In this document: positions 2,359-11,342 of the stretch, piece after piece
How the letters are laid out: each line of letters opens with the position of its first letter
How positions within the stretch are numbered: the first letter of the stretch is position 1
Assembly: GCF_000750005.1 (NCBI RefSeq)
Contig: NZ_JPYA01000120.1
Span: forward strand, 1-11,414
DNA from: Geobacillus icigianus
GTDB taxonomy: Bacteria; Bacillota; Bacilli; Bacillales; Anoxybacillaceae
Length of the DNA: 11,414 nucleotides
Direction of reading: 5' to 3'
The notes under the pieces: model-generated
The model's input: the letters and a program-made list of their open reading frames with translations, nothing else
Told to the model about the DNA's origin: nothing
Databases searched by the model: none
Translations under genes and position numbers: made by a program

Positions 2359-2625
2359 TTAGGTTGAGTGAAGCCATTTCAATACCAGCAGCTGTTTTTG
2401 GATTACTTTTTTAGCCCTTCCGCTTTTACCATTTTATCGCTTTGTTAAATTCACGTTCATTATGCCAAATTGAGAACGATAAAACCTGCTTTTGCTTCGT
2501 CGATCTCTCCCATATCCTCGTTTTTCCTCATAGAGCCAATCCGAAAAAAAAACATCAGCCATGCGCCCTTTTCTTATAAAAACATTAGATGAAGTGATTA
2601 ATATGGAAACCGTACGGGAACCGTC
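2359..2625 (-). pseudogene. Possible 3' remnant of a decayed gene (function unknown)
   Basis: On the minus strand one reading frame is open for 63 codons (2625-2437), is broken by a single TAA at 2434-2436, and continues in the same frame for 24 codons to a TAA at 2359-2361. A terminator lies just beyond. The end reads KVIQKQLLVLKWLHST, which has the look of a transposase C-terminus, but I cannot assign a family. No good start or ribosome binding site is seen, so this would be a truncated fragment. The chance that it is random open sequence is considerable. Confidence 0.3.
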
Positions 2626-2690
2626 TTATCGTTGCGCTGATATCAGCCTAAAACCGTCTAGCGTGTCCCGATGATGAAAGGAGAATGAAC

Positions 2691-3383
2691 ATGGAAAAGT
2701 ATATGTTAGAAACCCATCATGTAAGCAAAATGTTCGGAAAACAACTCGCTGTCGATGATGTGTCCATGAAAGTTCAAAAACATACTGTGTATGGTTTGCT
2801 CGGACCAAACGGAGCCGGAAAGTCCACGCTTTTAAAGATATTGACGGGGCTTTTGCGTCCTACGAAAGGGGAAATCGTGATCAACGGCCATCCTTGGAGC
2901 CGGAAAGACTTAAAACATATCGGTGCGTTGATCGAATCTCCTGCTCTTTACGGTAATTTAACCGCTCATGAAAACTTGCTTGTTCACGCCAAATTACTCG
3001 GGCTGCCGGAGTCGCGCATCCGGGAAGTTTTGCATCTTGTCGGTTTAGAAAACACTGGGAAAAAGAAAGCCGCGCAATTTTCTCTTGGGATGAAGCAAAG
3101 GTTGGGAATCGCCAAAGCTCTTTTGCATCATCCCCAACTGCTCATCCTTGACGAACCAACCAATGGATTGGATCCGTTAGGCATACAAGACTTGCGAAAG
3201 CTGATTCGATCCTTTACACAAAACGGAATCACTGTCATTTTATCGAGTCATATTTTGTCCGAAGTGAAACAATTAGCGGATTATATTGGCATTATCCAAA
3301 ACGGGAAACTCATGTATGAAGGGAAAATCGACGAGAGCCAAGATCTCGAAAAACTGTTTATTGATGTAGTGAGCAAACAGTGA
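2691..3383 (+). CDS. lanF: Lantibiotic immunity ABC transporter, ATP-binding subunit (LanF/NisF/SpaF type)
   Basis: This 230-residue ATPase powers a pump that moves lantibiotic molecules from the membrane back to the outside. Visible motifs: Walker A GPNGAGKS (38-45), signature SLGMKQ (131-136), Walker B LLILDEP (150-156) and the switch histidine in SSHILSE (H187). The Q-loop position carries glutamate in LIESPALYG (E82), the 'E-loop' reported as a hallmark of LanF proteins. I chose ATG 2691 because AAAGGAG sits seven bases before it; the in-frame ATG at 2685 is only two bases from that site. The two permease genes follow at 15 and then 1 bases, so it is the first gene of an operon. Other ABC-2 exporter ATPases look similar, but the E-loop and the lipoprotein gene downstream favour lantibiotic immunity. 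Confidence 0.85.
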   Translation: MEKYMLETHHVSKMFGKQLAVDDVSMKVQKHTVYGLLGPNGAGKSTLLKILTGLLRPTKGEIVINGHPWSRKDLKHIGALIESPALYGNLTAHENLLVHAKLLGLPESRIREVLHLVGLENTGKKKAAQFSLGMKQRLGIAKALLHHPQLLILDEPTNGLDPLGIQDLRKLIRSFTQNGITVILSSHILSEVKQLADYIGIIQNGKLMYEGKIDESQDLEKLFIDVVSKQ

Positions 3384-3398
3384 GGGAGGATGGAGACG

Positions 3399-4145
3399 AT
3401 GCTCAATATGTTCGAATCAGAACGTTTAAAGTATCAACGAACATTTGCGAAGAAACTGGTGTTTATTGCCCCGCTTTTCTTTATCCTGTACGCCGTCATT
3501 ACCATGCCGGCCATGAATTCGGCACACAACTATTTTGAATACACGGTGTTCAATTGGTGGCCATTGATTTTCGTTCCGATTGGCACCGCGTTGATCGCTT
3601 CCTTGTCAATCATGAGAGAGAAAAAGTCGGGAAACGATAGAGCGTTACGTTGTCTCGATATTAGCATAACAGGTTTATGGTGGAGCAAAATCGCCGTCGT
3701 CGCCTATTATCTGTTGCTTTCTACCGTGGAACTGATCATCTTGCTTGTTTTATTGAAATGGTTGGTGCCTAGCAGCCTTTCATCCGCTGTGGTCGCTGGA
3801 TGCGCCGGCTTGGTCATTTGGTTGACCTCTTTATCGTATATCCCGATCGGATTGTTTGTAGCCGAACGGTTTGGGATCGTCGTTTCGATCATTGTCAGCG
3901 TCATTGGCCTCGCTGTGGGAGTGATCGCAGCAACAACGCCTTATTGGCTGTTCATTCCATGGAGTTGGGGCATGAGGTTGATGTGTCCGATCGTCGGGGT
4001 TCATCCTAACGGGGTTCCTTTGAAAACAGGGGATCCGCTCTCGGATCCTTCGGTCATTCCCATCGGCTTAGCGATGGCTCTTGCCATGTTTCTGCTCTTA
4101 TCTTTTCTAACCGCCGTTTGGTTTGCGCGAAAGGAAGTGTATTGA
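3399..4145 (+). CDS. lanE: Lantibiotic immunity ABC transporter permease (LanE; MutE/EpiE type)
   Basis: This 248-residue integral membrane protein has six likely membrane segments, roughly at residues 20-40, 54-73, 97-122, 130-148, 155-180 and 222-243. The N-terminus FESERLKYQRTFAKKL is typical of the LanE/LanG group, where a charged cytoplasmic start precedes the first helix. GGGAGG lies before two in-frame ATGs. The ATG at 3390 touches it, while the one at 3399 is nine bases away, so I use 3399. It should pair with LanG and the LanF ATPase to expel lantibiotic from the membrane. The gene sits directly between lanF and lanG. Confidence 0.82.
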   Translation: MLNMFESERLKYQRTFAKKLVFIAPLFFILYAVITMPAMNSAHNYFEYTVFNWWPLIFVPIGTALIASLSIMREKKSGNDRALRCLDISITGLWWSKIAVVAYYLLLSTVELIILLVLLKWLVPSSLSSAVVAGCAGLVIWLTSLSYIPIGLFVAERFGIVVSIIVSVIGLAVGVIAATTPYWLFIPWSWGMRLMCPIVGVHPNGVPLKTGDPLSDPSVIPIGLAMALAMFLLLSFLTAVWFARKEVY

Positions 4146-4146
4146 C

Positions 4147-4935
4147 ATGTCGTTTCTACGCCTTCTGTCCTCCGAATGGCTCAAAACGAAACGCACCGCG
4201 ATTCGGCTGATGATGATCATCACGCCAATCAGTTATTCGCTTTTGATGGTGTGGTATTTTTCACACTATCACACCATCATGTTCCTAGAAACGAAAATAT
4301 ACGAAGCATTTTTTGAAGTGATGACCGTTTCCTTGCCGATCATCATCTCCCTGCTGACCGGGCTGATGGCCTATCAAGAAGAAAAAGCAGGAAGTTTCAT
4401 GAACATCTTGACCGGCCCTGTATCCAAAATGAAATCATATATTGGCAAGCTCACGCTGCTGATCTTTCTGGCAGGCGCGGACATCTTGCTCGCGACGCTG
4501 CTCATGCTCTTGGGCATGAAATACGTGCTCAAAGTGGCGCCCATTCATGAACACGTCTTTTTGCAAGGAGCGGCGCTCTCCATCGTGGGCTCCCTTTTTC
4601 TTTTTTCCTTGCATCTGTTCATCAGCTTTGCCTTTGGAATGGGAGCCTCGATCGCCGTAGGAAGCGGTGGATTTCTCATTGCTGCTCTGCTCGGGGCAAC
4701 ATCGTTAGGCGACCACATTTGGATGTATGTCCCTTGGACATGGGCTGTGCGTCTTTCCCAACTCCCCCTTCTGTCAATGCCCGAAATCAAGCAAGCCTTA
4801 GGGGAGCTGTTGTTGCATTCGTATTCCCTATCATTGCGGGAGGGAACGGCCTATGCTCTTCTAAGCTTTCTCATCGCAACCGTCATCGGTTCCATCTGGT
4901 TTCAGCGTTGGGAAGGAAACAAACCGCACGAATGA
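4147..4935 (+). CDS. lanG: Lantibiotic immunity ABC transporter permease (LanG; MutG type)
   Basis: The 262-residue membrane protein starts MSFLRLLSSEWLKTKRTAIR, the SEWLKTKR type of opening common in LanE/LanG permeases. It has about six membrane segments: near residues 22-42, 58-76, 96-120, 132-160, 165-185 and 232-252. AAAGGAAG inside the end of lanE precedes the ATG at 4147, one base after the lanE stop, so the two genes are translationally coupled. A longer in-frame start at 4123 lies inside lanE and lacks a better site. It is the second half of the permease pair for the LanF ATPase. Confidence 0.82.
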   Translation: MSFLRLLSSEWLKTKRTAIRLMMIITPISYSLLMVWYFSHYHTIMFLETKIYEAFFEVMTVSLPIIISLLTGLMAYQEEKAGSFMNILTGPVSKMKSYIGKLTLLIFLAGADILLATLLMLLGMKYVLKVAPIHEHVFLQGAALSIVGSLFLFSLHLFISFAFGMGASIAVGSGGFLIAALLGATSLGDHIWMYVPWTWAVRLSQLPLLSMPEIKQALGELLLHSYSLSLREGTAYALLSFLIATVIGSIWFQRWEGNKPHE

Positions 4936-4974
4936 CATTTCTCCCTCGTCAGGGAAATGTAAGGAGGGCAAACG

Positions 4975-5409
4975 ATGAAACATTCCATTTTGCTCGTCGT
5001 ATGGATCGGTATTTTCTTTATCGGAGGCTGTTCCGTGATCAGCGACTTAAAAAAGACCGCCACACAAAATATGGAGATCGACCGACAATTGCCAAAATAC
5101 GAGCTGAACAAGGACAATTTGCAAGAAATTCGCTACCAAGGCCGAATCTACGTGATTCAAGCTGCCAAAGTCGATCGACAGCACTTGAACAAACCGATCG
5201 GAAAAGTAGCGGAGACGATTACAATCAATGAACATCACCGCATTTTGAGCAAAAAGGAGCTGCGAAAAATCGAACTCATTCCCGACCAAAAAGATGAAAA
5301 ACGAACTCATTTGAACTTTGGCTGGGTATACAGCATCAAAGGCGTAAACCCGGAGGAAGAAGTGGCGGTTACAGTGAACCATCAATTTCTCATCGCTAAA
5401 AGGAAATAA
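4975..5409 (+). CDS. lanI: Lantibiotic immunity lipoprotein, SpaI/NisI type
   Basis: This 144-residue protein has a lipoprotein signal: a hydrophobic stretch at residues 4-17 and the lipobox IGGC with C19 as the lipidated cysteine. The mature part is about 126 residues and would be anchored on the outer face of the membrane. SpaI and NisI are immunity lipoproteins that bind or sequester their lantibiotic. The segments EIRYQGRIYVIQ and NKPIGKVAETITI resemble the repeat unit of that family. At this size it matches a single domain (SpaI-like) and not the two-domain NisI. GGAGG stands seven bases before ATG. The gene lies 39 bases after lanG on the same strand, which supports a joint immunity role. 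The likely target is a nisin/subtilin/geobacillin-type lantibiotic, not encoded here. Confidence 0.72.
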   Translation: MKHSILLVVWIGIFFIGGCSVISDLKKTATQNMEIDRQLPKYELNKDNLQEIRYQGRIYVIQAAKVDRQHLNKPIGKVAETITINEHHRILSKKELRKIELIPDQKDEKRTHLNFGWVYSIKGVNPEEEVAVTVNHQFLIAKRK

Positions 5410-5422
5410 CCGCCAAACGATC

Positions 5423-5447
5423 GCAGCTAGGGAGGCCCCCTAGCTGC
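5423..5447. terminator. Hairpin between the convergent operons (bidirectional terminator candidate)
   Basis: GCAGCTAGGG and CCCTAGCTGC form a perfect 10-bp GC-rich stem with a five-base loop. It is placed between the lanI stop (5409) and the sensor-kinase stop (5459), which face each other. There is no clear T-run on either side, so it may be an imperfect terminator or a 3'-end stabilising structure serving both transcripts. Confidence 0.55.
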
Positions 5448-5458
5448 ATCCTCCACTT

Positions 5459-6904
5459 CTACAACGGCGGGAAGGTCCTAGAATGATCAAGAGACAGCTC
5501 CTTAATATAAAATTCAACCGTTGCGCCGCCTTTGTCATTGTTGTACGCCCAAATGTCCCCACCATGATGATTGACGATTTGTTTCGCAATATACAGCCCC
5601 AATCCGACATGATGTTTATACTGCTTATCTTGATAAAAAGGCTGGAACAACAAAGACGTATCGTTTTCTTTAAACCCTGTTCCTGTGTCTGAACAGCGAA
5701 AATAAATTTTGCACGCATTCCCCTCTTCTTCATCATGCACTTCCAACGTAATTTCTCCGCTTTTTGTAAACCTCAAACTGTTGTATAAAATATTGTCCAA
5801 CACTCTCATGACCATTGCTTCATCAAGCACATAAGACGATCGTTGCAAATTCACATCAAAGCAAATCGCTAGCGATGGTTGACGAGAAACCATGGTTGAG
5901 AGCTCTCGTTTCTTCTCATCAAGCATTTGCTTTACATCCACTTCTTTTGCGTTCAATAAGAAGTGGCTCTTCTCCACTTTATAGAGCAGCGACAAATTAT
6001 CAGTCAACATGGTCATCTTTCCACAGTTTTTGCGAATGATCTCTAAGTGGGGCGTGACATCAAAGCGGTCCGACTTTCTCAAATCTTGAATCAAATCAAT
6101 TTGTCCTTGGATGACCGTTAACGGGGTTCTGATATCATGCGCGATCGATGACACCATCATTTTTCGTTCGTCATCGGTCTTTGCTAAACGTTCCACCATT
6201 TCTTTCAACGCACTGATCATGGCATTAAAGGAATTCTGGATTTTCATAAACTCTTTTCTTTTCAACCCCGAGACGTGAAAATCAAAATTCCCGCTGGCAA
6301 TGTGATCAGACGCCTCGAGCAACAATTTGATATTGTGAAACAATGATTGGTACAGCCTAGATGTAAAGAAAATCAAATAGACAATAAAAAAGAGCAATGG
6401 AGAAATCAGCAACGCAGCATAAATGAGCACAGGTTCCAAGCGCTTTTGATTGTTAATGATAAACCCAAAAGGCGCTTTCAACACATATACCGCCTGAATG
6501 GCGTTATCATGCTTCAAGGGAATGAACCGATACACATAGCTTCCTTTTACAATCTCACGGTTGATCGATTGACTAATATCCACTTGATCGTCTATAATTT
6601 CTCGATCACCATACAGATGCTTACCGCTGATGTCTACAACTTCTCCCTGTATCTTTTCACTGTAACGATGGATGGGAATGAATCTCCCCTTGAAAATCGC
6701 CTCTTCGTTTTCTTTTATCTTTTTTTCCATCAAATCCAAATCTTTGACGAAATAATTGGTCGGTTTCACCACATCGTTCGTGGCTAATGTAATAATCAAG
6801 TAGATTAAGCATAAATAAGTAACGACCGAAGAGATTGCCGTTGCCAACACGACTTTCACAACTAACAAATAAAAATCTCGTTTAATCGTTTTATCCTTTT
6901 TCAT
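5459..6904 (-). CDS. Sensor histidine kinase with extracellular domain and HAMP
   Basis: The 481-residue membrane kinase has one transmembrane helix near residues 12-41, an extracytoplasmic sensing domain at about 42-155, a second helix at about 157-181 and a HAMP linker at about 181-235. The dimerisation/phosphorylation helix follows with SSIAHDIRTPLT (likely phospho-histidine H256). The ATP-binding domain shows an N-box (DNILYNS, N371 and N375), a G1 box DTGTG (406-410) and a G2 box GLGL (434-437). Its start overlaps the end of the response-regulator gene by 14 bases, so the two form a pair. The start has only a weak ribosome site and probably relies on coupling. As the last gene of the secreted-protein/ABC operon, it most likely senses that protein, its target or envelope stress. 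Architecture and size are also like lantibiotic sensors such as NisK and SpaK. Confidence 0.88.
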   Translation of the reverse strand: MKKDKTIKRDFYLLVVKVVLATAISSVVTYLCLIYLIITLATNDVVKPTNYFVKDLDLMEKKIKENEEAIFKGRFIPIHRYSEKIQGEVVDISGKHLYGDREIIDDQVDISQSINREIVKGSYVYRFIPLKHDNAIQAVYVLKAPFGFIINNQKRLEPVLIYAALLISPLLFFIVYLIFFTSRLYQSLFHNIKLLLEASDHIASGNFDFHVSGLKRKEFMKIQNSFNAMISALKEMVERLAKTDDERKMMVSSIAHDIRTPLTVIQGQIDLIQDLRKSDRFDVTPHLEIIRKNCGKMTMLTDNLSLLYKVEKSHFLLNAKEVDVKQMLDEKKRELSTMVSRQPSLAICFDVNLQRSSYVLDEAMVMRVLDNILYNSLRFTKSGEITLEVHDEEEGNACKIYFRCSDTGTGFKENDTSLLFQPFYQDKQYKHHVGLGLYIAKQIVNHHGGDIWAYNNDKGGATVEFYIKELSLDHSRTFPPL

Positions 6905-7589
6905 CGGTCACATCCCATTTATAACCGAGCCCATATAATGTTTGAATATAAGACGTGTCCGGGTCGACCGCCTTGATTTTCTTACGAATATTTTTAATGC
7001 TTTCTGTAACAGTGTCTAACTGGCTGTCGGAGTCAATCCCCCATACTCGTTCAAAGATTCTTTCTTTGGAGAAAACGACCTTTTTATTGAGCATTAACAG
7101 CTTCACAATCTCATATTCTTTTTTTGTTAACGGTAATTTCTTTCCTTTACAAAAGACTTCGTTAGCCAAAAGATCAATCGTAATATGTTTCGAACTCAAA
7201 AGATATCTCTCGTTTGAACGAATCCGTTCTTCCCTTCGTAGATGGGAATCAATTCGCGCCTTCAATTCCTTTAAGCTGAACGGTTTGGTGATGTAATCAT
7301 CCCCACCGATCGCCAGCGCTTGAACCTTATCTTCCTCCATCGCTTTGGCGCTGACAAATAAAATGGGACAATCCACCCGATCGCGAATGATGGTGCACAG
7401 TTCCATCCCATCAATGCCTTCCATCATGATATCGAGCAAAATTAAATCAACATGTTCGTTCATTGCTTTCAACGCTTCCATCCCGCTGTGGGCCGTTTCT
7501 ACCTGATAATGATGAAGCTCCAAATATTGTTTGATTGTACAGCAAATGTCTTCCTCGTCGTCGATAACTAAAATTTTCTTTTTGTTCAT
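6891..7589 (-). CDS. OmpR/PhoB-family response regulator
   Basis: The 232-residue DNA-binding regulator has an N-terminal receiver with acidic residues D10 and D11, phospho-acceptor D53 (LLDIMM), S80 and K102 (TKPF). A winged-helix domain spans about 127-228 and ends in the typical TLYGLGYKW. I chose ATG 7589 over an in-frame ATG at 7640 because GGGGGAG lies six bases before it and the family consensus begins at MNKKKILVIDDEE. This leaves 47 bases after the ATPase gene, including the palindrome ATTCGCGAAT (7605-7614). It should be phosphorylated by the kinase it overlaps. Likely targets are the promoters before the secreted-protein gene and possibly the facing immunity operon; neither is proven. 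Confidence 0.9.
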   Translation of the reverse strand: MNKKKILVIDDEEDICCTIKQYLELHHYQVETAHSGMEALKAMNEHVDLILLDIMMEGIDGMELCTIIRDRVDCPILFVSAKAMEEDKVQALAIGGDDYITKPFSLKELKARIDSHLRREERIRSNERYLLSSKHITIDLLANEVFCKGKKLPLTKKEYEIVKLLMLNKKVVFSKERIFERVWGIDSDSQLDTVTESIKNIRKKIKAVDPDTSYIQTLYGLGYKWDVTDEKG

Positions 7590-7636
7590 CTTTTGCTCCC
7601 CCATATTCGCGAATTTCGACATGACACCCATGACGG

Positions 7637-8290
7637 TCATTCTGACGCAATATGGGTCATCCCGGTAATCATCCCTTCATTCATTGCATACACTTCGTGG
7701 CATAATGACTGGATGTCCACCTTGTTGTGAGACGTCAACAAAATGGTGCAGCCTCTTTTGTTTTCTTCCCGAATCATTTGGTATACTTGATCCACTGATT
7801 TTTCATCCAACGCATTCATCGGTTCGTCGAGCAGCATCAACTGCGGCTTCTCCATGATGCACTGTGCGATACCCAGTCTTTGTCTCATTCCAAGAGAGTA
7901 GGCTTTCACCGGCCTTTTATCATGCGGATCCAACCCTACCCGCTCCATTGCCTCTTTTACCTCGCGCTCGCCGATTTTGTTTTGAATCATGGCTAAAAAA
8001 TGCAAATTATCGAATCCTGAGTATTGTTCAAGGAAACCTGGTTTTTCCAATAAAACAGAAATATCGCTCGGAAAGGATACATCTTGGTGCAACGTCTGGC
8101 CAAATACCGCCACCGTGCCGGTGGACGGCTTCACCAATCCACTGATGACTCGGAATAACATCGTTTTCCCTGATCCGTTCGGCCCGACGAATCCATAAAT
8201 CTTTCCTTTTTCCAATTCCAAGTTGATATGGCGCAACACTTCTCTTCCTTTTATCGTTTTGGAAACATTGGACAAGACGATCGCCTTCAT
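7637..8290 (-). CDS. ABC transporter ATP-binding protein of the peptide/transporter operon
   Basis: This 217-residue ATPase has Walker A GPNGSGKT (36-43), signature SLGMRQ (132-137), Walker B LMLLDEP (151-157) and switch histidine H188 in LTSH. As in LanF, the Q-loop position holds glutamate: VLLEKPGF (E82). AGGAGGGG lies about eight bases before the ATG and overlaps the end of the preceding permease gene; the gap is 12 bases. It most likely drives the pump formed by the three membrane proteins encoded just upstream. Related ATPases serve in bacteriocin export or self-immunity. The substrate is presumably the secreted protein at 10729-11118 or a related peptide, by context only. Confidence 0.85.
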   Translation of the reverse strand: MKAIVLSNVSKTIKGREVLRHINLELEKGKIYGFVGPNGSGKTMLFRVISGLVKPSTGTVAVFGQTLHQDVSFPSDISVLLEKPGFLEQYSGFDNLHFLAMIQNKIGEREVKEAMERVGLDPHDKRPVKAYSLGMRQRLGIAQCIMEKPQLMLLDEPMNALDEKSVDQVYQMIREENKRGCTILLTSHNKVDIQSLCHEVYAMNEGMITGMTHIASE

Positions 8291-8302
8291 ATCGAACCCC
8301 TC

Positions 8303-9004
8303 CTAGATATAATCCGCGTTCTTCACTCTTTTGACCGTCCAATACCCGAACAGACCAATCAACAAGAGCTCCACAAACAGAGCCAACCACACGATAAGAC
8401 CGCCCCGCAAATGATCGACCATGCTGTAGTACAACGGAACGAAAGCCATCGGCTGCTTCACACCTATAAAAAACAAAGCGAGAATGACGGCATTAGCCAA
8501 ATGATTCGTCGCGTGTACCTTCAAACACATCCACACGCTGGCATGCCAATACAAATTCACAGCAATGCAAATGAACATGACCACTAACGAACGGTCAAAC
8601 GAAACCGCCATATGCGACACAAAGAGACCGAAAACGCTAGCGATCAAAAACGCCGCCAATACATACACCAATGTAAACGGAACAGCTACCAGCAGCCTAG
8701 CTATCGTGTACGACGTCGTATCCCTTAACAAAATGAACAGTGTATGTTCAAAATATTGATCACGTTTTTTCCAAACGATTTGGAGCAACACCACATAACC
8801 GAAACAAAACATCAGCCAATACATCCAATTTGAGATCGTCACCGCTCCGAATAAGCGGGCGAATAACTCCGGTAGGTGTTGGGAAGAAAACGCCTCTGAC
8901 CTGATGGACATCATAGTGCCCAACAGCGGGAATAAAAGGCAGGTCATCATCATTTTTTTGAACTCCATTTTGATGAGAGTAAACTCCAAATCCATTCGTT
9001 TCAT
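8303..9004 (-). CDS. ABC-2-like membrane protein, third of three in the operon
   Basis: The 233-residue hydrophobic protein has about six membrane segments, near residues 17-35, 60-78, 104-128, 138-157, 166-186 and 200-222. After helix 2 it has a charged cytoplasmic stretch (KKRDQYFEHTLFILLRDTTSYTIARLL) of the kind seen in ABC-2 permeases. Its ATG overlaps the TGA of the preceding gene (ATGA, 9001-9004), so translation is coupled; AGGA lies nine bases before. I recognise no named family beyond ABC-2-type permeases. With the other two it probably forms the channel for the ATPase at 7637-8290. Confidence 0.72.
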   Translation of the reverse strand: MKRMDLEFTLIKMEFKKMMMTCLLFPLLGTMMSIRSEAFSSQHLPELFARLFGAVTISNWMYWLMFCFGYVVLLQIVWKKRDQYFEHTLFILLRDTTSYTIARLLVAVPFTLVYVLAAFLIASVFGLFVSHMAVSFDRSLVVMFICIAVNLYWHASVWMCLKVHATNHLANAVILALFFIGVKQPMAFVPLYYSMVDHLRGGLIVWLALFVELLLIGLFGYWTVKRVKNADYI

Positions 9005-9741
9005 AAAAGATCATCCTGAACATAGTAGTTTTTGTTGTTTGACGAAAACCGAATCATATGGATCAACAGCAACATCATCAAAACGAAAACTAGGATTGTC
9101 CAAACGGGAGACACTCTCTCACTGATGTAAAATACGTACGGTATCATCTTGAAGGTGAACATATCCAATATGGCCAGCGTGATAACCGTTACGACGCTGA
9201 AAAAACGGTTCGCCCAAAAATCGGTTAGCCACACAAACATCAACCCGAATATCGCTGTGAGCAAAAAATACGTAATAAGAAAATAAAGGAACGAGCTTTT
9301 GTCCCCACGATGTGGCACGTATAAAAAAGCCGCATGGACGTTCTTTATGTTGGGATATATAATATATTTCACCAACGTTGTACATAATCCGCCTACTGCG
9401 ACAACCCAAAGAGACATACAGACAGCTAAGGCGAGGACGAGCAGCGCTTTATGCATCCCAATCTGTCCCCGGGTGCGGTATCTTCTTAGGATCATCCACG
9501 TATTGGTTCGCAACATTGAACCTAAAAGAAATAAAAACGCAGGCAGATGGAAAAATTCATACCGATAGAGCAAGATAAACTCTTTTAGACTATGCCATTT
9601 GCCAATCGTGATTGATCCCCATGGCAGGACGGCTGCAAACATCAACAAGGCAATGACGCCTAGAACGGTCTTGATGACGGTTCGATGCAACGTTACATCT
9701 TGCCAAATGAAAAAAACACTCTGTTTACAGAACATCTTCAC
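9001..9741 (-). CDS. ABC-2-like membrane protein, second of three in the operon
   Basis: The 246-residue protein has about six membrane segments, near residues 23-43, 62-80, 97-122, 150-173, 178-200 and 211-233. A strongly basic loop (MILRRYRTRGQIGMHK) follows the second segment, like the cytoplasmic loop of ABC-2 permeases. The start is probably GTG at 9741, with GGAG nine bases before; an ATG two codons later is possible. It overlaps the end of the preceding permease gene by 17 bases and the next gene by 4. Very dense packing implies all three membrane proteins are made together. No specific family is recognised. Confidence 0.7.
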   Translation of the reverse strand: MKMFCKQSVFFIWQDVTLHRTVIKTVLGVIALLMFAAVLPWGSITIGKWHSLKEFILLYRYEFFHLPAFLFLLGSMLRTNTWMILRRYRTRGQIGMHKALLVLALAVCMSLWVVAVGGLCTTLVKYIIYPNIKNVHAAFLYVPHRGDKSSFLYFLITYFLLTAIFGLMFVWLTDFWANRFFSVVTVITLAILDMFTFKMIPYVFYISERVSPVWTILVFVLMMLLLIHMIRFSSNNKNYYVQDDLL

Positions 9742-10606
9742 TTTTCTTCACTCCATACGAAAATACCCCTACCGCGATCAACAATTGGAGGACAAACACG
9801 ATGGCCATTTTCCAGTAGGCCAATCCTTCTACTGGTTGTGAAGGAAGTAAGAAATTAAACGGATCCCAAGCAAGTTGGCCGATGATGGTCAGCACCGCCC
9901 AACAAAGCATATAAATGATTTGTGGCATCAACGTAATCAAATACCGATTTTTCAACAACAAGGAACATCCTAAACCAAGGCAGACGTAACCGCTGGCAAA
10001 TAACCCCCCGATTACATAATAAACGAGTGTATACCAATAAGGGGAGATCTCCAGCAAAGATGAAAAAAGCGTTTTCTTTTCTCCCGCAAATGAGTTGTCC
10101 GGCAGCGGCAGCGTCCCGGCGATCAATTGCCGATATGCTTGGGAATAGCTCGAATAATCCCAATGATTCGTCAACAGATTCACCAGCACAACTCCCAGCA
10201 CAAGAGGAAGGAGGAACAAGAAAAAAGCGCTGATATAGGTAAACATAAACTTCCTTCGGTAATAAGCTCCTCTTCCCATCCGTGTCAATTGATAATGAAC
10301 ATTTCCGCTCTTTCGTTCACGATCCATCGAATCCACCAATGGGATCGATAACAATAGCGGGAAAAGGAAGTAATATAGAGATGAGAGTACGTTAAAGTGG
10401 AAGCCTCCTAGGCCAACCCATTCAAGGTGAGGCGATGCCAAGGCGAAAACATTAGGATTGTCGTGGTAAATTCGTTCAAGCAACTGCACATTTTCACGAT
10501 AATCTTTCACTCCCAACACGACGGCGCCGATGACAAGCAGCAGCAGGCAGGCGGCGCTGATATAAAGGTTCTTATTTTTCAGAAGTTTAAGCAATTCCAT
10601 ATACAT
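9725..10606 (-). CDS. ABC-2-like membrane protein, first of three in the operon
   Basis: The 293-residue permease has about six membrane segments, near residues 15-35, 70-92, 118-145, 190-214, 222-243 and 263-283. The cytoplasmic block DSMDRERKSGNVHYQLTRMG after helix 2 is the conserved ABC-2 permease pattern (acidic and basic residues, then a TR turn before YYRRK). I chose ATG 10606, with GGGAG eight bases before it; extending to the in-frame TTG at 10621 would put the start ahead of that site. It is the first gene after the strong hairpin at 10635-10671 and is followed by two overlapping permease genes. Expected role: the membrane part of an exporter or self-protection pump. Confidence 0.78.
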   Translation of the reverse strand: MYMELLKLLKNKNLYISAACLLLLVIGAVVLGVKDYRENVQLLERIYHDNPNVFALASPHLEWVGLGGFHFNVLSSLYYFLFPLLLSIPLVDSMDRERKSGNVHYQLTRMGRGAYYRRKFMFTYISAFFLFLLPLVLGVVLVNLLTNHWDYSSYSQAYRQLIAGTLPLPDNSFAGEKKTLFSSLLEISPYWYTLVYYVIGGLFASGYVCLGLGCSLLLKNRYLITLMPQIIYMLCWAVLTIIGQLAWDPFNFLLPSQPVEGLAYWKMAIVFVLQLLIAVGVFSYGVKKSEDVL

Positions 10607-10634
10607 ACGATCATCTCCCAATTCTTCTGTTTAA

Positions 10635-10671
10635 GGTCGGTCTTCTTCAACAAAATTGAAGAAGACCGACC
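10635..10671 (-). terminator. Strong 16-bp hairpin between the secreted-protein gene and the transporter genes (attenuator/processing site)
   Basis: GGTCGGTCTTCTTCAA (10635-10650) and TTGAAGAAGACCGACC (10656-10671) form a perfect 16-bp stem with a five-base loop. No T-run follows on the minus strand (the next bases are TTAAAC), so full intrinsic termination is unlikely. Such a stem after a highly expressed secreted-peptide gene would stabilise the upstream mRNA and lower read-through into the pump and regulator genes. Confidence 0.75.
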
Positions 10672-10728
10672 CTGACGAAGAAAACCTCTCTCTTGTCCAA
10701 GTTGACTGAACATATCTATAAAAATCGA

Positions 10729-11118
10729 TCAATTGTCGGGATAAAATTTGCCTGCGATGTCAACTGTAACGTAAGTGAAGGATGCATTTTCCGCCATTAA
10801 TGAAACTTTTTTACCAACAGCGCTTTGATCGACAGTAAAATAACGCGTGTCATTATCGGTTACATTCAGCGCGGTTGGCGAAACTTTCGTGGAGCCTTGC
10901 TGAATCCACATATTCGCTTTATAATCGCTTCCAACAACCGAATTTTCCACTTTACTTTTACTGTTCGTCGCTTTATTGGCGCTCGCTAATTCCGTGTCAG
11001 CTCCAAAGCGCGGAAGAACTGTAGCATAGGTAACATAGGATGCTGCGCTAACTCCTCCTATCGCAATTAATGAGATAAAAGCAATCAAAGTAGTAACCAT
11101 TTTCATTTTTTCCTTCAT
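10729..11118 (-). CDS. Small secreted protein (bacteriocin-like; possibly DUF2712-related)
   Basis: The 129-residue protein starts with a basic N-terminus (MKEKMKM) and a hydrophobic core (about 8-22), and has a likely signal-peptidase site after VSA (A25). The mature product is about 104 residues. It has no cysteine, so it is neither a lantibiotic nor disulfide-bonded, and no double-glycine leader is present. The mature part has a hydrophilic section rich in Ser/Asn/Lys (44-60). Its C-terminal half, with KVSPTALNV, VGKKVSLMAEN and GKFYPDN, resembles secreted Bacillus proteins of the DUF2712 type; this is from memory and uncertain. A strong site (AAGGAGGAG) stands about nine bases before ATG. 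The gene heads an operon with three permeases, an ATPase, a response regulator and a kinase. A role as toxin, signal or pump substrate is inference. Confidence 0.82.
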   Translation of the reverse strand: MKEKMKMVTTLIAFISLIAIGGVSAASYVTYATVLPRFGADTELASANKATNSKSKVENSVVGSDYKANMWIQQGSTKVSPTALNVTDNDTRYFTVDQSAVGKKVSLMAENASFTYVTVDIAGKFYPDN

Positions 11119-11208
11119 GATTCAATCTCCTCCTTCTAAACATGTTGTCGCTTAACCTGCTTTTTTTCTTCAAAAGTCCTTTAAGATGACATGTTTCAAT
11201 AGCGGATG

Positions 11209-11237
11209 TTTATACGTTTTAAGTACAAGTGTCACAA
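11209..11237 (-). promoter_or_regulatory. Proximal sigma-A-type promoter (P2) of the secreted-protein operon
   Basis: On the minus strand TTGTGA (11232-11237) and TATAAA (11209-11214) are separated by exactly 17 bases. Transcription would start near 11202, giving a leader of about 85 bases. Between this promoter and P1 there is a near-direct repeat, GATATGAG / GATATTGAG (11255-11270), about 18 bases before the -35. That arrangement could suit an OmpR-family regulator, but the repeat is short. Confidence 0.6.
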
Positions 11238-11297
11238 AGAATGCATAGGAATTTCTCAATATCTCATATCATCCCCCTTTTAAATTTCAAAGTATAG

Positions 11298-11307
11298 GGA
11301 CCGGTCC
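11298..11307. promoter_or_regulatory. Palindrome at the predicted start site of P1
   Basis: GGACCGGTCC is a perfect 10-bp palindrome in an otherwise AT-rich region. It covers about the first ten transcribed bases from the distal promoter. It could be an operator for a dimeric repressor or a small 5' structure in the RNA. No regulator is assigned. Confidence 0.4.
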
Positions 11308-11314
11308 TGTGAAA

Positions 11315-11342
11315 ATTATAATCTTTTTAAAAAAAAATGCAA
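11315..11342 (-). promoter_or_regulatory. Distal sigma-A-type promoter (P1) of the secreted-protein operon
   Basis: On the minus strand TTGCAT (11337-11342) and a perfect TATAAT (11315-11320) are separated by 16 bases. The upstream sequence is very AT-rich, as in UP-element-assisted promoters. Transcription would start near 11308, leaving an untranslated leader of about 190 bases before the ATG at 11118. Confidence 0.65.

Follow-up and report, generated by a model that had tools for sequence, protein, structure and literature searches.

We analysed a window of 11,414 nucleotides from the thermophile Geobacillus icigianus (G000:C119; the genome comprises 3.46 Mb in 206 contigs, and G and L numbers denote our genomes and loci) and found that it is almost certainly a mosaic of two separate gene sets, split near 7605/7607. 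By alignment and gene content, positions 7607-11132 are a five-gene module encoding a secreted protein (SP), three membrane proteins (M1, M2 and M3) and an ATP-binding cassette (ABC) ATPase, and positions 2547-7605 are the lanRK and lanI-G-E-F part of a geobacillin-type lantibiotic cluster. Whether the module encodes an unmodified bacteriocin-like protein together with an immunity pump is, in our judgement, an even call, and it is the account of function that we develop below. A sequence-only reading of this DNA had taken seven genes, from SP to a response regulator (RR) and sensor kinase (HK), as one dedicated operon. Its gene list agrees with ours: seven co-directional minus-strand open reading frames (ORFs) lie at 5459-11118, with overlaps of 17 bases between M1 and M2 (9725-9741), 4 between M2 and M3 (9001-9004) and 14 between RR and HK (6891-6904), and hydropathy likewise bears out a 129-residue Cys-free protein with an N-terminal hydrophobic stretch and three membrane proteins. 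The features of the window are as follows.

10729-11118, minus strand: SP, secreted Cys-free protein of 129 residues; signal peptide at about residues 1-26, mature part predicted all-beta
10631-10675, minus strand: hairpin in the SP/M1 gap; 20 pairs, one mismatch allowed
9725-10606, minus strand: M1, ABC-2-like membrane protein, first pump subunit; the listed ORF reaches 10621
9001-9741, minus strand: M2, second membrane protein; no family, place conserved
8303-9004, minus strand: M3, third membrane protein; no family over cut-off, place conserved
7637-8290, minus strand: ABC ATPase of the pump; PF00005, 111.9 bits
7605-7607, no strand: junction, where the SP module meets the lantibiotic regulatory-immunity segment; from blastn alignment end points
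6891-7589, minus strand: RR, LanR; PF00072 and PF00486; the listed ORF reaches 7640
5459-6904, minus strand: HK, LanK; PF00512 and PF02518
4975-5409, plus strand: LanI, SpaI/NisI-type immunity lipoprotein; PF18218 at 108 bits and NF033433 at 112 bits, both over cut-off
4147-4935, plus strand: LanG, lantibiotic immunity permease; TIGR03733 at 277 bits, cut-off 117
3390-4145, plus strand: LanE, lantibiotic immunity permease; named from its position and from the order with LanF and LanG kept in relatives
2685-3383, plus strand: LanF, lantibiotic immunity ATPase; PF00005 match at 2754-3164, order kept in relatives

The ATPase, RR and HK all score over their Pfam cut-offs, and LanF-LanE-LanG-LanI (2685-5409, plus strand) converge on HK. 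RR likely starts at 7589, ATGAACAAAAAG behind a GGGGGAG site, kept in relatives, and not at the first in-frame ATG at 7640; the apparent 4-base overlap of the ATPase and RR genes would therefore be an annotation artefact. For M1, the probable start as judged by eye is the ATG at 10606 rather than the TTG at 10621.

The split is seen in blastn alignments of the window with the loci of 15 relatives. Eight SP-module loci align from 7607 to 11132-11155 (among them, L021 and L023 begin at 7656, and L026, whose SP is truncated, stops at 10933). For the eight lantibiotic loci, the alignments start at 2535-2676 and end at 7593-7605; those of L142 and L019 fall into two pieces. Two loci belong to both groups: in L020 (Geobacillus zalihae) the genes follow the window's order, ATPase and RR being about 0.5 kb apart, and L019 has a different order. 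L077 (genome G028) aligns unbroken over 7504-10619 at 97.7%, and so carries the same junction; SP is missing at one side of this locus and most of RR and HK at the other. Set against the 0.5-kb gap of L020, the direct junction in the window looks like a deletion. No terminator-like site was listed on the minus strand at 7500-7700, and with none between the co-directional ATPase and RR genes, HK and RR may be read through from the SP operon in this strain.

We found the lantibiotic side of the junction to be recognizable from its relatives. Within a family set of 41 genomes, HK is present in 12 and LanI in 11, and all 11 LanI genomes match HK; the twelfth HK is a 77-residue fragment in G026, and the HK of G031 matches kinase residues 1-192 only. 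RR is 81-91% identical to regulators that adjoin a kinase and lanI in ten relatives' loci. A lanB of this type (at least 88% identity) occurs in five relatives (G013, G018, G023, G024 and G030). L136, L137, L138 and L141 show the order lanB, lanT, lanC, RR, HK and then converging LanI-G-E-F (lanB being cut off by the end of L136), and in G030 the order lanB-lanT-lanC-RR-HK-LanI-G-E-F extends across L019 and the preceding stretch. LanB (PF04738, 489 bits) and LanC (PF05147, 286 bits) of L138 both pass Pfam; lanB-lanT-lanC of the other four relatives were assigned by order, length or identity. Because lanI-G-E-F adjoin RR and HK, HK and LanI share eleven genomes, and lanB-lanT-lanC precede in five, we identify RR and HK as LanRK, so that the two-component pair which the sequence-only reading had dedicated to the module belongs instead to a geobacillin-type lantibiotic locus. 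The LanI and LanG family matches, with LanRK beside lanB-lanT-lanC in relatives, place window positions 2547-7605 in a class I lantibiotic system. As a side observation, the LanK homologue of G031 (L145:8925-14528) reads into an open frame of 1867 aa.

The window itself holds no lanB, lanT or lanC. Across its genome we obtained 0 LanC matches (the control matched in 1 of 14 genomes), 0 LanB profile matches (no control genome matched) and 0 matches with a LanB protein query that finds 6 of the 41 family genomes. Six of the 11 LanI genomes likewise have no match to lanB of this type, and a lantibiotic precursor gene was not identified in the flanks of four relatives. From its gene content, the segment looks like a sensing and immunity remnant from which the production genes have been lost; the window would then present a lantibiotic locus without production, its sensing and immunity retained, fused to another operon. 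Near the immunity genes, 124-1002 encodes a 292-aa polyprenyl-synthase-like protein (PF00348, 56 bits), which may be ComQ-like, and L020 carries a 60% relative (12533-13426) at the side of LanF where it lies in the window. A transposase-like ORF of 305 aa was noted by eye at 1139-2056, with relatives near the module in L019 and L022.

The other gene set is also found in relatives that have no kinase. SP occurs in 13 of the 41 family genomes (as a fragment in G006, partial in G021 and interrupted in G031), and M1-M2-M3-ATPase adjoin it in 11 of the 12 SP genomes other than the window's, the exception being G006. Homologues of the small protein, which had been expected to keep company with both pump and kinase, often stand without an HK match (4 of 13: G006, G021, G027 and G038), yet the pump is usually alongside. 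An intact kinase lies directly downstream of the module in only 2 of the 13, and 3 of the 12 HK genomes (G004, G007 and G024) are without a window-type SP. More widely, an M1 profile matches in 58 of 397 genomes of the order, and among 50 loci from a module-profile scan, not all of them with a full module, RR-like matches occur in 6 and HK-like matches in 4. Distant loci share a layout made up of SP, two permeases (about 265 aa and about 506 aa, the longer one split in L046) and an ATPase; their SPs are homologous to that of the window (hhalign, 92.1%), and SP relatives include entries named from Actinomycetota.

Searching with tblastn, we found module genes on plasmids, two of them below 10 kb. 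The mobilizable pHJT3_2 of Priestia aryabhattai (9,971 bp) carries SP, M1, a long permease (running past the record's end) and an ATPase beside a relaxase and small hypothetical genes. On pPS15-2 of Planococcus versutus (9,775 bp), the strand of SP is opposite to that of M1, long permease and ATPase, the last annotated as two overlapping pieces. SP is also divergent from the pump in L163 (P. aryabhattai) and faces the pump in L045; in L045, L163 and L164 it stays adjacent to the pump even on the other strand. A conjugative plasmid of Parageobacillus toebii has the first two pump genes and no recognizable SP in the stretch read, and a near-identity search of plasmids with the seven-gene stretch gave no match.

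To quantify loss, we ran 31 loci and dropped L078 (contig edge) and L104 (no module). The 29 scorable loci, which are not independent (L016, L017 and L018 are near-identical), comprise 21 with SP and pump intact, four with the pump only, two with SP only and two with neither, in agreement with the proposal that SP and pump form one unit. Pump intactness in L041, L046, L080 and L087 was judged from ORF lengths; L028 and L079, with an insertion between SP and M1, and L024, whose SP matches from residue 10, were scored intact. In the pump-only L077, the pump has remained 95-100% identical to that of the window after loss of SP, most of RR and HK, and pump-only loci, this one above all, suggest some benefit from the pump even without SP. 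The window's genome also has a second, distant pump (G000:C173, L083; M1, long permease and ATPase) with no recognizable SP, and its relatives L081 and L082 carry SP there. In L092, L093, L094 and L097, a membrane-protein-like ORF of about 415-440 aa stands upstream of M1, at the usual place of SP.

SP contains zero Cys residues and a single hydrophobic N-terminal stretch (residues 7-25), and on inspection its signal peptide appears to be Sec-type. AlphaFold predicts a confident all-beta model, a beta-sandwich (predicted local distance difference test score 83.7), and the fold resemblances include carbohydrate-binding modules and spore-appendage proteins among the matches listed. SP belongs to no Pfam or NCBIfam family over cut-off. 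Substitution rates were compared for pairs among 7 clade sequences, with 19 to 21 of 21 pairs usable. The mean ratio of nonsynonymous to synonymous rates (dN/dS) was 0.155 for SP, 0.115 for M1, 0.224 for M2, 0.215 for M3 and 0.074 for the ATPase; mean dN and dS of mature SP were 0.040 and 0.507, values by which the mature protein is under purifying selection. Several candidate relationships fell away: YxeA appears in the database name of one SP homologue, and the Pfam scan listed no YxeA family for SP; the SP of L045 had no match in a phage collection, leaving no sign of phage origin; and in the PDB the SP profile matches sequences of de novo designed immunoglobulin-like proteins (E 5e-6) over 26-29 residues, which we put down to strand-pattern similarity. 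Upstream, a palindrome GGACCGGTCC at 11298-11307 was seen by eye to adjoin a minus-strand TATAAT (11315-11320), and 11298-11320 is likely the SP promoter region; blastn alignments to other loci stop near 11132-11155, short of this putative promoter region.

Between SP and M1, the stem at 10631-10675 was reached by 0 of 200 dinucleotide shuffles. Twenty-eight such gaps were folded, from which eight were left out (five near-duplicates, L028 and L079 with inserted DNA, and L107 with a 334-base gap) and to which L102 and L106 were added. In the resulting 22, which include close relatives and loci whose small secreted protein is not a recognized SP homologue, 18 gaps have a stem of at least 10 pairs and 15 exceed at least 95% of dinucleotide shuffles. 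Across lineages the stems share a position and differ in sequence, and Rfam gave nothing at gathering scores. Their placement suggests that the hairpin would favour SP over pump in amount, which would suit a secreted product.

The pump genes show 6 (M1), 5 (M2) and 5 (M3) hydropathy peaks. M1 matches PF12730 and DUF5453, both below cut-off, and is homologous to the first permease of the distant modules (hhalign, 95.9%). The idea that M2 and M3 are halves of the distant permease of about 506 aa found no profile support; L046 shows such a split of that permease, its halves matching at 98.9% and 99.7%. The ATPase lies nearest to TIGR03740, the lantibiotic-protection ATPases (160 bits, under the 310-bit cut-off), which fits the self-protection type of pump that had been proposed, though below cut-off; it also matches TIGR03608 (112 bits, cut-off 255). 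Pfam listed no peptidase domain in it, and the module has neither a modification enzyme nor a protease, as had been noted. A search for anti-phage defence systems returned matches for the ATPase only, and this candidate was set aside.

The module also has annotated relatives. Several pump loci hold another small secreted protein at SP's place, and the one in L115 is a DUF2712 protein (PF10916, 98.8 bits). L143, L144 and L166 read DUF2712, three membrane proteins, ATPase and a further gene of about 200 aa, with DUF2705 or WxPxxD matches on the membrane proteins of L143 and L166, and one operon of the module's layout is annotated DUF2712 - DUF2705 - WxPxxD - DUF2705 - ATPase. The order SP - M1 - M2 - M3 - ATPase is common to the window, L143, L144, L115 and L166. 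We aligned profiles of 80 SPs and 65 DUF2712 proteins with hhalign and obtained 96.7% at full length and 62.3% without signal peptides (controls: 7.6% reversed, 0.4% or less in five column shuffles); a search of ORFs from five plasmid loci with the SP profile likewise picks up the DUF2712 protein of L166 (E 4e-5). For M1, hhalign indicates homology to the permease that comes first in DUF2712 modules (96.5%), and profile comparison detected no homology of M2 or M3 to their permeases. DUF2712 itself (PF10916, gathering 22 bits) did not appear among the matches of the window SP at E <= 1 and had 0 matches in the window's genome; DUF2705 and WxPxxD were not listed for M1-M3, and PF10920 had 0 matches in that genome. 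By these profile comparisons SP is a remote homologue of DUF2712, in a superfamily in the wide sense, so that an earlier hint at DUF2712 holds as remote homology and not as a Pfam match, and the module is a divergent relative of DUF2712 operons that are annotated and, as far as searched, unstudied. It had been called undescribed: that description fails for the layout, which is annotated, with both DUFs in B. subtilis, and stands for function, no functional study of DUF2712, DUF2705, WxPxxD or yyb genes having been found in the literature searched.

Among 14 control genomes, DUF2712 and DUF2705 occur in B. subtilis only, and we take these members to be the yybN-yybJ operon (yybNMLKJ), with yybN presumably encoding the DUF2712 protein. 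The DUF2712 modules of L143, L144 and L115 end in the sixth gene of about 200 aa (L143:11311-11916, L144:11222-11839, L115:2337-2924), which has two repeats like GxYxVGxxIPxGxY and no Pfam family in the two copies scanned. An unannotated DUF2712 relative was also seen at 1586711-1587124 of NZ_CP030101.1, which the plasmid collection lists under the name Listeria monocytogenes (2.9 Mb). According to the available text of one study, Rok binds the yybN region in B. subtilis, and the Rok targets listed together there include the yybN operon, sboA-alb, sunA and sdp (PMC2978689). A 2024 review gives the operon's function as unknown in the part available (PMC11841835), and an excerpted study models YybJ, YybK and YybL as an ABC complex (PMC11466899).

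Taken as a bacteriocin-immunity pair, the module would work as follows. SP would be exported through the general Sec pathway, lose its signal peptide and fold outside the cell as an unmodified, disulfide-free beta-sandwich, and its target would then be the envelope of related competitors. The three membrane proteins and the ATPase would form an ABC-2-type pump that keeps SP, or its damage, off the producer's membrane, the hairpin behind the SP gene would provide more SP message than pump message, and the kinase and regulator would sense a lantibiotic, not SP. We favour this reading because SP and pump stay together, are carried on plasmids and usually have a stem between their genes, because pump-only loci exist and the ATPase resembles lantibiotic-protection ATPases, and because SP has a confident all-beta model and is under purifying selection; the listing of the yybN operon with sboA-alb, sunA and sdp, as far as the available text goes (PMC2978689), points the same way. 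Against it, the SP-only loci weaken a strict toxin/immunity reading, and the asymmetry of loss, used as a test of such a pair, did not discriminate, the expected one-sided pattern not being seen.

The strongest rival, which we consider unlikely though worth serious attention, has SP work with the pump from outside the cell, by binding antimicrobials or shielding the surface, and makes the module a resistance device against other organisms' antimicrobials, with a logic like that of LanI and LanFEG. It draws on the lantibiotic genes or remnants within about 20 kb of the module in 7 of 14 SP-or-pump genomes (G000, G013, G023, G026, G028, G029 and G030; G018 has both near contig ends), on decay of SP and pump in both directions, on the strong conservation of SP and on the frequency of ligand binding among beta-sandwich folds, and a hairpin behind the first gene would also fit binding-protein operons. 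However, four of the 29 loci keep the pump without an intact SP, SP may sit on the other strand, apart from the pump operon, and, having no Cys, it lacks a lipobox anchor; moreover, no lantibiotic genes were seen by eye in seven distant loci.

A role for SP at the surface, in the matrix or as a signal, with the pump serving another envelope task, is quite improbable. The fold resemblance of SP to carbohydrate-binding modules and spore-appendage proteins and its slow evolution would suit such a role, but the link to an immunity-like pump and carriage on plasmids of less than 10 kb would go unexplained. Some bacteriocin operons combine a product gene with its exporter. That this pump exports SP or another product instead of protecting is a slim prospect: SP has a Sec-type signal peptide, the ATPase is without a listed peptidase domain, and SP and pump are each found alone, even if one paper, in its available text, presumes ABC export for lactococcin 972 as well (PMC11161930). 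Least credible is a single dedicated signalling and immunity operon with SP as the signal for the kinase and with SP and pump driven by the regulator. The genes do run in one direction, no terminator-like site separates ATPase and regulator, and L020 keeps their order across about 0.5 kb; but kinase and regulator adjoin lanI-G-E-F in relatives and follow lanC in five, kinase and window-type SP occur apart (3 of 12 and 4 of 13 genomes), and the direct junction looks like a deletion.

Returning to the bacteriocin-immunity pair, we tentatively propose, at somewhat less than even confidence, that SP-pump modules, DUF2712 operons and the yybN operon all belong to one large unrecognized class. Its bacteriocins would be unmodified beta-sandwich proteins secreted through Sec, each accompanied by a split ABC-2 immunity pump and in many cases by a hairpin that sets their ratio, and the class would occur across Bacillota and on small plasmids. 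If the pairing is right, it would provide a function for DUF2712, DUF2705 and WxPxxD proteins and probably for the B. subtilis operon, and the 10-kb Priestia plasmid would offer a compact natural test object.

Comparison with known systems places the two halves of the window differently. The DUF2712/DUF2705 operons share with the module the order of secreted protein, three membrane proteins and ATPase (L115, L143, L144 and L166), a hairpin after the first gene in three of these four loci (L115 is without) and remote homology of SP (96.7%) and M1 (96.5%); they differ in that the window SP misses the DUF2712 profile, M1-M3 miss DUF2705 and WxPxxD, M2 and M3 have no detectable homology to their counterparts, and the sixth gene of about 200 aa is absent from the window module. 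Lactococcin 972 binds lipid II and is without cysteines (available text of PMC8538875), and its cluster, as described in the part of PMC11161930 available, comprises a precursor with a signal peptide, a seven-span immunity protein and an ABC transporter. If our reading holds, the likeness is an unmodified Cys-free secreted protein with membrane immunity; the module differs in having three membrane proteins, not one, and the lactococcin ABC protein is, in the same excerpt, presumed to be an exporter, not part of immunity. Lactococcin-972-like models had been suggested for SP; neither the protein nor its immunity family was listed for SP or M1-M3 in Pfam or NCBIfam. In the fold comparison of SP, lactococcin 972 was not among the 50 entries listed, and a family outside that listing may still share the fold. 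The remaining segment resembles geobacillin I and Z-geobacillin. The published Z-geobacillin gene set is A, B, C, T, K, R, I, G, E and F, and the window's RR, HK and lanI-G-E-F match the reported R, K, I, G, E and F (both as given in the available text of PMC6165006); the window differs from these systems in having no lanB, lanT or lanC, with sensing and immunity retained.

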